This document shows positions 14,588 through 18,670 of a DNA stretch of 64,000 bases, piece after piece. Every line of letters begins with the position of its first letter. The stretch's first letter is position 1. The notes below the pieces were generated by a model. It had not been told where the DNA came from, did not search any database, and saw nothing but the letters and a program-made list of their open reading frames with translations. The stretch comes from Paracoccaceae bacterium (GTDB lineage Bacteria > Pseudomonadota > Alphaproteobacteria > Rhodobacterales > Rhodobacteraceae): positions 1-64,000 of the forward strand of contig JAIXSA010000156.1 of assembly GCA_027484915.1 (NCBI GenBank). Direction: 5' to 3'. The translations under genes and the position numbers were made by a program.

Positions 14588-15574
14588 ATGCCTGCCAGCC
14601 GCCTGACTGTGGTCGTGACGCGACGGCTGCCCGAGGTCGTGGAGACGCGGATGAAGGAGTTGTTCGACGTCGACCTTCGCGACCCCGACGTTGCGATGAC
14701 GCGCGAGGAACTGGCCGAGGCGATGCGGAGGGCGGACGTGCTGGTGCCGACGATCACCGACACGATCGACGCGGGGCTTCTGGCGCAGGCGGGCGAGAAG
14801 CTGAAGCTGATCGCGAACTATGGCGCGGGTGTCGATCACATCGACGTGGCGACGGCGCGGCAGCGGGGAATCCTGGTGTCGAACACGCCGGGGGTCACGA
14901 CCGAGGACACGGCGGACATGGTTATGGCGCTGATCCTCGCGGTGACGCGGCGCATCCCGCAGGGTCTGCAGGTGATGCAGGCGGGCGGCTGGACCGGCTG
15001 GTCGCCGATGGCCAACCTGGGCGGGCGGCTGGGCGGGCGGCGACTTGGCATCCTGGGTATGGGCCGGATCGGTCAGGCGGTGGCGCGCCGCGCGCGGGCC
15101 TTCGGGTTGCAGGTGCACTACCACAACCGAAAGCGCGTTCGTCCCGAGGTCGAAGCCGAGCTTGAGGCGACCTATTGGGAAAGCCTGGACCAGATGCTGG
15201 CGCGGATGGACATCGTCAGCGTGAACTGCCCGCACACGCCGTCGACCTTCCATCTGCTGAACGCGCGGAGGCTGAAGCTGATGAAGCCCTCGGCCGTCGT
15301 CGTGAACACGTCGCGCGGCGAGGTGATCGACCAGAATGCCCTGACCCGGGCGCTGCGGGCAGGCGAGCTGGCCGGGGCTGGGTTGGACGTCTACGAGCAC
15401 GGCACCGACATCAATCCGCGGCTGGTGGAATTGCCGAACGTCGTCCTGTTGCCGCACATGGGGTCGGCCACCCTGGAGGGGCGTATAGAGATGGGCGAGA
15501 AGGTCATCATCAACATCAAGACCTTTGCCGATGGCCACCGCCCACCGGATCAGGTTGTGCCCGGAATGTTCTGA
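14588..15574 (+). CDS. D-isomer-specific 2-hydroxyacid dehydrogenase (glyoxylate/D-glycerate dehydrogenase-like)
   Basis: LGGRRLGILGMGRIGQAVARRARAFG, NTSRGEVIDQNAL, LPHMGSATLEGR. Confidence 0.92.
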   Translation: MPASRLTVVVTRRLPEVVETRMKELFDVDLRDPDVAMTREELAEAMRRADVLVPTITDTIDAGLLAQAGEKLKLIANYGAGVDHIDVATARQRGILVSNTPGVTTEDTADMVMALILAVTRRIPQGLQVMQAGGWTGWSPMANLGGRLGGRRLGILGMGRIGQAVARRARAFGLQVHYHNRKRVRPEVEAELEATYWESLDQMLARMDIVSVNCPHTPSTFHLLNARRLKLMKPSAVVVNTSRGEVIDQNALTRALRAGELAGAGLDVYEHGTDINPRLVELPNVVLLPHMGSATLEGRIEMGEKVIINIKTFADGHRPPDQVVPGMF

Positions 15575-15726: not shown

Positions 15727-15960
15727 ATGTTTAAAGTCCTTAAGGCCGGGCTGGTGGCCGTGACCGCTCTGACCGCCTCGACGGCCTATGCCGGAGGCCC
15801 GGTCCTGATCGAGGAAGGCAACAACGAGCTGATCACAGAGGCACCCTCCAGCCGCGTCGGCATCCTGCCGGTAATTGGCGCGTTGGTGCTGGTGTGCCTT
15901 CTCGCCTGCGGCGGCGGCGATGACGACCCTGCACCCGAGCCGGATCCCGATCCGAAATGA
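15727..15960 (+). CDS. Micro-gene array unit 1: small exported/membrane protein, 77 aa
   Basis: MFKVLKAGLVAVTALTASTAYAGGPVLIEEG...SSRVGILPVIGALVLVCLLACGGGDDDPAPEPDPDPK; signal peptide + AGGPV + TM + C-G + acidic tail. Confidence 0.75.
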   Translation: MFKVLKAGLVAVTALTASTAYAGGPVLIEEGNNELITEAPSSRVGILPVIGALVLVCLLACGGGDDDPAPEPDPDPK

Positions 15961-15977
15961 ACACACGGCTAGCGGCA

Positions 15978-15995
15978 GGGCCCCACTCGGGGCCC
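15978..15995 (+). terminator. Terminator of array unit 1
   Basis: gggcccc-actc-ggggccc stem followed by gttttg. Confidence 0.6.
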
Positions 15996-16222
15996 GCCGA
16001 CGTTTTGGGCAGAGGCGGCATGAAGTGCACCCTGCCTTCCGTCATCCCCTACAAGACGATGAACCAGACTTGGGATTTTGCGACACGTCTGTTGCATTAA
16101 AGCCAAAGCGTCGCACTCATTCTTCACGCTGCTACACGAATCCGTTGTGCCGTTATCCGAACATGCCATAGCGTTAAGACATGAGTTCTCCCGGGCTGCC
16201 CGGACAATAGAAAGGAAATGCC

Positions 16223-16420
16223 ATGAAAAAGTTTCTTGGGTCGATGCTGGCCGCCACGATGATCACTTCGGCTGCTTACGCTGGTGGTCCGGTCGTCGTT
16301 GAAGAAGAGCCGGTTGTCGAAGCTTCGTCCCCGCGTTCGGGCTGGATTGTTCCGGTCATCATTGGCGCGATCGTGCTCTGCGCCATCGCCTGCGGCAACG
16401 ACGACGATCCGCAAACCTGA
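16223..16420 (+). CDS. Micro-gene array unit 2, 65 aa
   Basis: MKKFLGSMLAATMITSAAYAGGPVVVEEEPVVEASSPRSGWIVPVIIGAIVLCAIACGNDDDPQT; RBS GAAAGGAAA. Confidence 0.8.
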   Translation: MKKFLGSMLAATMITSAAYAGGPVVVEEEPVVEASSPRSGWIVPVIIGAIVLCAIACGNDDDPQT

Positions 16421-16445
16421 TCCAGGTTCCAGTCGATTGGACGGA

Positions 16446-16466
16446 CGGCAGCGCAGTGCGCTGCCG
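16446..16466 (+). terminator. Terminator of array unit 2
   Basis: cggcagcg-cagtg-cgctgccg followed by TTTGCATTTTC. Confidence 0.75.
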
Positions 16467-16616
16467 TTTGCATTTTCGCCCTGCCGATGATGCATCATTG
16501 GCACAGGGAGCGGGCATTGTCGGGTCGGGGAGGCGTGGAGTTCTAGAATCGAGGGCGCATGTGCTATCGATACACTAGGTCGGTAACGTCCGGCTGTTCA
16601 CCCAAGGAAGAACGCA

Positions 16617-16829
16617 ATGATCAAAATCGCGTCGAGCCTCCTGGCCCTTACCCTTGCCTTCGGCTCTGCCGTTTCGGCTGGTGGTCCTGTGGTCGTCGAA
16701 GAAGAAGGCCAGCCTGAAGTCGTGGCCGAAAGCCCGCGTTCGGGCTGGATCGTTCCCATCATCATCGGCGGCATCATCCTGTGCGCCATCGCCTGCGGGA
16801 ACGATGACGAGCAGACTCCTCCTCCGTGA
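16617..16829 (+). CDS. Micro-gene array unit 3, 70 aa
   Basis: MIKIASSLLALTLAFGSAVSAGGPVVVEEEGQPEVVAESPRSGWIVPIIIGGIILCAIACGNDDEQTPPP. Confidence 0.8.
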   Translation: MIKIASSLLALTLAFGSAVSAGGPVVVEEEGQPEVVAESPRSGWIVPIIIGGIILCAIACGNDDEQTPPP

Positions 16830-16852
16830 TCGAATGTCCAAGAATGGACCTA

Positions 16853-16874
16853 CGGCAGCGCTTAGGCGCTGCCG
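16853..16874 (+). terminator. Terminator of array unit 3
   Basis: cggcagcgc-ttag-gcgctgccg followed by TTTGCTTTT. Confidence 0.75.
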
Positions 16875-17032
16875 TTTGCTTTTGGACCGACCGTCACGCG
16901 ATGATGCATCTTGGGCACAGGAGAGCGTTCACCGTTCGGTCGGGGTGCCGAAAGAGTTCAGTTCTGTCTAAAGCGTGTGCTAGGGGAAATCACGCCGGCA
17001 ACGTCCGGTTTGCATATCCAAGGAAAAACAGA

Positions 17033-17242
17033 ATGACCAAGATCGCATCGAGCATCCTCGCCTTTACCCTTGCCTTTGGCTCTGCCGTTTCGGCCGGTGG
17101 CCCTGTCGTCGTCGTGGAAGAAGGCCAGCCGGAAGTTGTGGCTGAAAGCCCGCGTTCGGGCTGGATTGTTCCCGTCATCATCGGCGGCATCATCCTGTGC
17201 GCCATCGCCTGCGGCAACGACGACGAACAACAGCGCGGTTGA
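17033..17242 (+). CDS. Micro-gene array unit 4, 69 aa
   Basis: MTKIASSILAFTLAFGSAVSAGGPVVVVEEGQPEVVAESPRSGWIVPVIIGGIILCAIACGNDDEQQRG; internal ATG of ORF 16826..17242. Confidence 0.8.
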   Translation: MTKIASSILAFTLAFGSAVSAGGPVVVVEEGQPEVVAESPRSGWIVPVIIGGIILCAIACGNDDEQQRG

Positions 17243-17268
17243 TTGACGGTTCCAGTCTGCTGGACGGA

Positions 17269-17289
17269 CGGCAGCGCAGTGCGCTGCCG
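17269..17289 (+). terminator. Terminator of array unit 4
   Basis: Same 21-mer cggcagcgcagtgcgctgccg as unit 2, followed by TTTTCGTTTT. Confidence 0.75.
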
Positions 17290-17524
17290 TTTTCGTTTTG
17301 GCAGTGAGCGTCTTTGAATGGTTTCTTCGCCACAGGGAGCGACACCGTCAGAATTGGACGCCCGGAAGCCAAATGCGCTCTTGCGGCGCTGATATTGATG
17401 CAGGGCGGATACAGGTGTGTCCGGCTAGCCGAACTGCAGTGGCTGATCTCTCGCAGGAACGGCATCCTGTGATAGTGTCGGAATGACCGGCGCGATGCGT
17501 CTGTTTCCTTTGAAGGAGTCATCC

Positions 17525-17731
17525 ATGACCAAGATTGCAGCCTCAGTTCTTGCCCTGTCCCTGGCCTTCGGTTCGGCCGTTTCCGCCGGCGGCCCCGTCG
17601 TCGTCGAAGAGGAAGGCCAGCCCGAAGTGGTGGCCGAGAGCCCGCGTTCGGGCTGGATCGTTCCCGTCATCATCGGCGCGATTGTCATCTGCGCCATCGC
17701 CTGCGGCAACGACGATCCCGTCGACGACTGA
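17525..17731 (+). CDS. Micro-gene array unit 5, 68 aa
   Basis: MTKIAASVLALSLAFGSAVSAGGPVVVEEEGQPEVVAESPRSGWIVPVIIGAIVICAIACGNDDPVDD; RBS GAAGGAG. Confidence 0.8.
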   Translation: MTKIAASVLALSLAFGSAVSAGGPVVVEEEGQPEVVAESPRSGWIVPVIIGAIVICAIACGNDDPVDD

Positions 17732-17794: not shown

Positions 17795-18670
17795 TCAGAT
17801 CCCGTTGATCGGCACCTTCAGGAAGCGCTTCCCGTCCTCGTCCGCAGGGGGGAGGTCTCCGCCGCGCATGTTGATCTGCAGCGAGGGGATGATCAGCTTT
17901 GGCATCGCCAGCGTCCTGTCGCGCGCGGTCCGCAGCGCGACGAATTCCTCACGCGATTTGCCGGCGACGTGGATGTTGTGCGCCCTCTCCTCCCGCACGG
18001 TGGTTTCATAGGCGATGTCGCGGCCGTTCGGGCCGTAGTCGTGGCACATGAAAAGCCGCATCTCGTCCGGCAGGGACAGGACCTTCTGGATGCTGTCGTA
18101 CAACTGCCCGGCGTCGCCACCGGGAAAGTCGGCCCGGGCCGAGCCGCCGTCAGGCATGAAGAGCGTGTCGCCGACGAAGGCCGCGTCGCCCATGACATGC
18201 GTCATGCAGGCAGGCGTGTGGCCGGGGGTGTGAAGCGCGGTGCAGGTCATGGTGCCCACAGTGTAGGTATCGCCGTCGTCGAACAGCCGGTCGAACTGTG
18301 ACCCGTCGCGCTGGAACTCGGTCCCCTCGTTAAAGATCTTGCCGAAGGTGTCCTGCACCACGGTGATGTTGCGGCCGATGCCGATCTGGCCGCCAAGCTG
18401 CCGCTGGATATAGGGCGCGGCAGAAAGGTGGTCGGCGTGGACATGCGTCTCGATCAGCCATTCCAGGGTCAGCGCCTGATCACGGACGTAGGCGATCAGT
18501 TCGTCGGCATGGGTGTAGGTGATGCGGCCGGCGGCATAGTCGATGTCCATCACGCTGTCGACGATGGCACAGGCGGCAGAGGCCGGGTCCTTCACCACGT
18601 AGCTGATGGTGTTGGTGGCGGGATCGAAGAAGCCCTTCACCAGGGGTTTGACGGACAGATCGATTGTCAT
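17795..18670 (-). CDS. MBL-fold metallohydrolase, persulfide-dioxygenase/Blh-like
   Basis: LIETHVHADHLSAAPYIQRQLGGQIGIG, HTPGHTPACMTHVMGDAAFVGDTLFMPDGGSARADFPGGDA. Confidence 0.88.
   Translation of the reverse strand: MTIDLSVKPLVKGFFDPATNTISYVVKDPASAACAIVDSVMDIDYAAGRITYTHADELIAYVRDQALTLEWLIETHVHADHLSAAPYIQRQLGGQIGIGRNITVVQDTFGKIFNEGTEFQRDGSQFDRLFDDGDTYTVGTMTCTALHTPGHTPACMTHVMGDAAFVGDTLFMPDGGSARADFPGGDAGQLYDSIQKVLSLPDEMRLFMCHDYGPNGRDIAYETTVREERAHNIHVAGKSREEFVALRTARDRTLAMPKLIIPSLQINMRGGDLPPADEDGKRFLKVPINGI

Follow-up and report, generated by a model that had tools for sequence, protein, structure and literature searches.

Five short genes standing in tandem in the window (the whole stretch of DNA that was analyzed, 64,000 nucleotides, contig C22 in a draft assembly of 3.8 Mb) represent, as judged from sequence comparison, a previously unclassified family of exported micro-proteins of the Rhodobacteraceae. 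We set at roughly 0.5 the probability that their products are Sec-exported single-helix envelope proteins which act as the GfcA/YjbE of a YjbF-YjbH system. Within the Rhodobacteraceae, the genome falls in the Tabrizicola group; the named records nearest to it are those of Tabrizicola thermarum, T. flagellatus, and MAGs of this genus. None of the models in Pfam, NCBIfam, PHROGs, or PADLOC covers the units, a sequence search of the PDB gave no useful match, and nothing relevant was found in the literature on the family or on yjb genes in Rhodobacter-type bacteria; a homologous family of established function, which would have told against the original prediction, was not encountered. Because they are short and match no Pfam or NCBIfam family, genes of this kind are readily missed or annotated as hypothetical.

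The predicted tandem array of five exported paralogues of 65-77 aa was recovered in full, every ORF and the shared plan included. The units are listed below with their hairpins and flanking genes; unit coordinates include the stop codon.

14588-15574, plus strand: left flank, D-2-hydroxyacid dehydrogenase gene, a conserved neighbor of the array in the genus, outside the family
15727-15960, plus strand: unit 1, 77 aa, divergent, core PVIGALVLVCLLAC, tail GGGDDDPAPEPDPDPK, first position of the array
15978-15995, plus strand: hairpin after unit 1, short and GC-rich, 7 bp stem, possibly a weak terminator
16223-16420, plus strand: unit 2, 65 aa, core PVIIGAIVLCAIAC
16445-16467, plus strand: terminator-like hairpin after unit 2, 11 bp stem, T-rich tail
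16617-16829, plus strand: unit 3, 70 aa, core PIIIGGIILCAIAC
16852-16875, plus strand: terminator-like hairpin after unit 3, 10 bp stem, T-rich tail
17033-17242, plus strand: unit 4, 69 aa, core PVIIGGIILCAIAC
17266-17292, plus strand: terminator-like hairpin after unit 4, 11-12 bp stem, T-rich tail
17525-17731, plus strand: unit 5, 68 aa, core PVIIGAIVICAIAC, helix at residues 45-60 in the AlphaFold model
17795-18670, minus strand: right flank, MBL-fold hydrolase gene, followed by sulfur-transport genes, outside the family

Each unit consists of an AxA-type signal peptide, AGGPV, an acidic linker, one helix containing C-x3-C, and an acidic tail. The mature protein starts at (A)GGPV, the linker is rich in Val with a net charge of -3 to -4, and the hydrophobic stretch ending in C-x3-C has a mean Kyte-Doolittle value of 2.3-2.7. 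An AlphaFold model built with 28 family members shows a signal-peptide helix (residues 3-19) and a single confident helix (45-60). If the signal peptide is cleaved, the acidic tail should end up in the cytoplasm, contrary to the usual charge rule, and full translocation is therefore possible. As had been claimed, units 2-5 have in common the sequence SPRSGWIVP(V/I)IIGxIxxCAIACGND, in place of which unit 1 carries GILPVIGALVLVCLLACGGGDDD, and exactly five of the first 66 residues distinguish unit 3 from unit 4. For unit 5 an upstream ATG at 17483, which would give a longer ORF, is not a likely start. The suggestion that unit 1 is founder-like was not borne out; this unit is a separate orthologous lineage, which takes the first place behind the 2-hydroxyacid dehydrogenase gene in the window and, as positional orthologues, in ten other genomes.

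The array units are genuine genes rather than chance ORFs: their profile recovers further copies in this genome and related genes in 31 of 32 same-genus genomes, the core is under purifying selection, and among approximately 140 copies just one is frameshifted and one decayed, so that the frameshifts in relatives named as grounds for doubt prove rare. The two defective copies (L066:3394-3633 and L084:3011-3145) lie in arrays of relatives and are consistent with birth-and-death turnover, assembly error being possible in these draft genomes. Units are spaced about 195-285 bp apart, and a hairpin lies no more than 80 nt downstream of 74 of the 111 array copies across the genus, with none in shuffled sequence; on this basis the array resembles a row of individually terminated genes rather than a single operon. 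The intergenic hairpins were also considered as an RNA element, but Rfam matches were sub-threshold only and their appearance is that of terminators. A consensus search found no sigma-70-type promoters, and although some 7-mers upstream of the units, TGTTGCA for instance, are enriched, no clear common promoter emerged.

A comparison of copy number across relatives placed the family in 31 of 32 same-genus genomes, mostly as arrays of 2-6; the remaining genome (88% complete) has YjbF and no family member. Of 121 Rhodobacteraceae genera, 64 contain members, while none was found in any other genome of the 191 sampled across the class. Plasmids, phages, and viral contigs yielded none with single-protein queries, which distant members would escape, and a phage or plasmid origin of the family finds no support in these searches. 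Within the genome itself, a profile of the five units picks up a sixth, unlinked copy of their own type (E = 5e-29) along with three remoter paralogues; the four further members comprise a CAIACGND copy (C128), a YjbF-linked copy (C44), one with an S74-like tail (C143), and one devoid of C-x3-C (C160). The AxA-GG site is present in 131 of the 137 extracted members. Distant members retain the signal peptide, AGG, the acidic/Val region, SSS-G, and the hydrophobic helix; most are without cysteines and some without the tail.

In much of the genus the array is bounded by the D-2-hydroxyacid dehydrogenase gene on one side and a DAO-type FAD oxidoreductase gene on the other, past which come iron-alcohol dehydrogenase and aldehyde dehydrogenase genes. 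The subclade of the window has a different right side (the MBL-fold hydrolase and sulfur-transport genes), and a single copy, on C128, stands by the FAD oxidoreductase elsewhere; the altered flank and this lone copy are consistent with the splitting of an older array by rearrangement.

The original proposal of selection on the membrane-helix-plus-Cys core of the mature peptide is strongly supported, both by pN/pS and by the matching of cores within genomes. Inside arrays the core has pN/pS of 0.023/0.324 (CVALC-type) and 0.053/0.317 (CAIAC-type), which denotes strong purifying selection. The paralogues evolve in concert, with signal peptides following orthologous position and the helix core homogenized inside each genome. 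The figures for this come from the CVALC-type arrays (56 members, a core of 19 residues), where the position of a copy is recognizable from its signal peptide. First-position signal peptides differ by 0.325 across genomes versus 0.593 from their own array mates, whereas the cores of first-position copies differ by 0.265 across genomes versus 0.057 from array mates. Only 3 of 54 signal peptides, but 27 of 54 cores, have their nearest neighbor within their own genome. The ratio of within- to between-genome amino acid difference is 1.08 for the signal peptide, 0.75 for the linker, 0.56 for PASSxGIL, 0.17 for the core, and 0.57 for the tail; third-position ratios are 0.99 (signal peptide) and 0.69 (core), with noncoding flanks at 1.00. 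This constitutes a clear bacterial case of concerted evolution limited to the mature part of a micro-protein, the signal peptides being free to diverge.

Gene conversion explains some of this homogenization. Unit 1 of T. thermarum (L049:3513-3737) is visibly a gene-conversion chimera, in which a unit-1 signal peptide and tail enclose a core whose DNA is 83-92% identical to array mates and 50-68% identical to its own orthologues. Conversion by itself is probably insufficient, because cores still match where synonymous divergence within a genome equals the level between genomes: same-genome pairs with synonymous divergence of at least 0.35 (n = 29) differ at about 0.06-0.08 of amino acids versus 0.22-0.29 between genomes, although such divergence is near saturation and the timing accordingly rough. 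From this we infer that the core is tuned to something specific to each genome, either a common partner or the other copies. Covariation of the core between the YjbF-linked copy and the array gave p = 0.02 in 10 CVALC-type genomes, a result confounded by phylogeny.

The paralogue on C44 lies approximately 157 bp past a gene for a YjbF/GfcB lipoprotein (E = 2e-25), which adjoins YjbH/GfcD (E = 2e-79) and has TamB on its other side. The products of gfcABCD and yjbEFGH have been implicated in capsule or exopolysaccharide (PMC8592465, PMC11494523). Many loci having been reached via family hits, YjbF was used as the starting point of a fair count: it is present in all 32 genus genomes, with a family member beside it in 24 and none in 8, and the adjacent member is usually accompanied by YjbH too. 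Comparison of positions places a family member within about 500 bp of YjbF in 18 other genera, where the expectation by chance is essentially nil, and two genera (L164, L170) have three-copy arrays beside YjbF.

The resemblance to GfcA/YjbE (PF11106) lies in size, the signal peptide, a hydrophobic segment with an Asp-containing stretch behind it, tails rich in Thr in some family copies, and linkage to YjbF (GfcB) and YjbH (GfcD), the last holding for the paralogue lineage and not for the window array. The differences are that the mature part gives no significant sequence match, that GfcA/YjbE lacks the AGGPV-acidic linker and C-x3-C, that the YjbF-linked family gene is last or convergent, after YjbF, whereas the E. 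coli small gene is the first of its operon, and that the family, unlike GfcA/YjbE, is amplified in arrays. With PF11106, unit 1 scores E = 0.049 and 14.3 bits (cut-off 27.9) and the other units give no match; the model exceeds its cut-off in only 4 genomes, all of one family (f39) outside the window's own, and in the E. coli control. Alignment of the family with YjbE by hhalign gave a weak match of 60% over the full length and one of 84% with a wider alignment, the latter over the signal peptide only; both scores exceed segment-shuffled controls (0/200), and the signal peptide dominates the match. We do not claim membership in PF11106, and the suggestion that the family may work like GfcA draws on position and plan. 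GfcA is itself small and was described as entirely uncharacterized in 2024 (PMC11494523); the presence of several family copies per genome, natural variation in copy number, and helix matching offer a tractable handle on this small partner of YjbF/YjbH.

The sequence strongly indicates that each of the five paralogous precursors has a cleavable signal peptide ahead of an AGGPV-acidic N-terminus, a hydrophobic helix, and a short acidic tail; on the preferred reading, the product would stay in the envelope, held by the helix. There it would serve as a small accessory partner of an outer-membrane polysaccharide-export system of the YjbF-YjbH (GfcB-GfcD) type, an envelope or capsule role being probable since a sister copy adjoins polysaccharide-export genes. 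Amplification in an array may provide a higher dose together with copy-specific expression; the paralogues would work interchangeably or jointly, their differing signal peptides and upstream regions leading to different expression. A partner common to all products, or their assembly with one another, would account for why the cores stay alike; that gene conversion and purifying selection bring about the matching within a genome is strongly indicated. Among the roles originally listed, that of a structural membrane or envelope peptide thus fits best, and the YjbF/YjbH context sharpens it.

The window array does not adjoin YjbF/YjbH, and it is conceivable, though we hold it the less probable view, that these micro-proteins have a general structural or stress role in the membrane or envelope, that the YjbF link concerns only one paralogue lineage, and that the array supports membrane integrity without any connection with polysaccharide. 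The many copies per genome and the variety of unrelated niches agree with this, other paralogue lineages sitting by a ferrochelatase, Lon, or zeta-toxin-like gene. Yet proximity to YjbF recurs in the 18 other genera, arrays included, and is hardly incidental. Regarding these niches, a distant Cys-less clade (about 58 aa, MKKLALAAAL..AGGM.EPVMEP..SSSAGGIVVPLLLLLVVAAAASN) adjoins the ferrochelatase gene in several Rhodobacteraceae genera (L147, L153, L155, L161, L163, L166). In the window's genome the paralogue MKKTLTATLMAALAAPAMAGGPVLLED.. on C160 (L016:1489-2788) immediately precedes a gene for a zeta-toxin-like P-loop ATPase, a related version of which arrangement is seen in L107.

That the peptides are instead cargo exported by YjbH, or subunits of a membrane or surface assembly, seems unlikely. 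Such subunits would explain why cores match within a genome even at saturated synonymous sites, and the linkage to YjbH, the resemblance of the N-terminal barrel of YjbH/GfcD to the amyloid transporter FapF (PMC9603273), and the proposal that GfcA is an exported, modified protein (PMC8592465) count in the same direction. A strongly hydrophobic helix, however, would normally stop in the membrane, and export past the inner membrane is only hypothetical. Were it true, the helix cores would match because distinct copies have to pack against one another, and every species would maintain a matched subunit set of its own, the genes of which differ in regulation and in signal peptide.

Greater doubt attaches to the C-x3-C pair as a metal or redox site by which the peptides handle metal or buffer thiols in the envelope. 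The pair is kept in 122 of 137 members, its flanks are acidic, and a cation-efflux gene is a common neighbor of the array; but both cysteines are missing from 12 of the approximately 137 extracted members and from nearly all distant ones, some of them beside YjbF, which excludes this part of the original proposal as a general function, and the cysteines lie inside the helix or at its end. Toxin-like or pore-forming peptides (type I toxin or bacteriocin), likewise listed at first, are disfavored to the point of being very improbable: the genes are small, hydrophobic, multicopy, and tandem, but they are near-universal in the genus, encode a cleavable signal peptide, match no toxin family, have no conserved antitoxin, immunity, or exporter gene adjoining the array, and went unrecovered from the plasmids, phages, and viral contigs searched.

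Equally improbable are lipoproteins with a lipobox near the C-terminus (inverted lipoproteins). The family shares with NF058595 (invert_tail, the "lipo-invert" putative C-terminal anchoring domain) a Cys-bearing hydrophobic segment at the C-terminus ahead of an acidic tail, the end of unit 1 (LLAC-GGGDDD) reads as a lipobox, and unit 1 (E 0.07) and an L059 copy (E 0.01) weakly resemble the model. The lipobox is nevertheless missing in most members, a strict [LVI][ASTVI][GAS]C occurring at the second Cys in 8 of 122 and at the first in 0 of 122, with Leu, Met, Val, or Phe ahead of the second Cys in 75 of 122; the best NF058595 score, 16.2 bits, is far under the curated cut-off of 37, which is passed in 0 of 61 family genomes, and both a C-terminal lipobox and NF058595 identity are rejected.

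Two further observations concern the sequences themselves. The paralogue on C143 (L015:1477-1905) bears, after its acidic tail, a C-terminal domain (SDIRLKEDI...) of the Peptidase_S74/tail-fiber chaperone type (PF13884), with E = 5e-5 in Pfam and E = 7e-17 to a PHROG virion-structural family. The domain is missing from all five window units and is confined to this lineage (L015, L099, L102, L104, L105, L108), which in the genus adjoins a gene pair including Lon protease, and to a single member of an array of six in another genus (L148). Within the array, a repeated element, GATGATGCATC.TTGG.CACAGG, occurs at 16482-16510 and 16897-16925, past the terminators of units 2 and 3 and about 100 bp ahead of the next unit start; it may be either a relic of duplication or a regulatory site.
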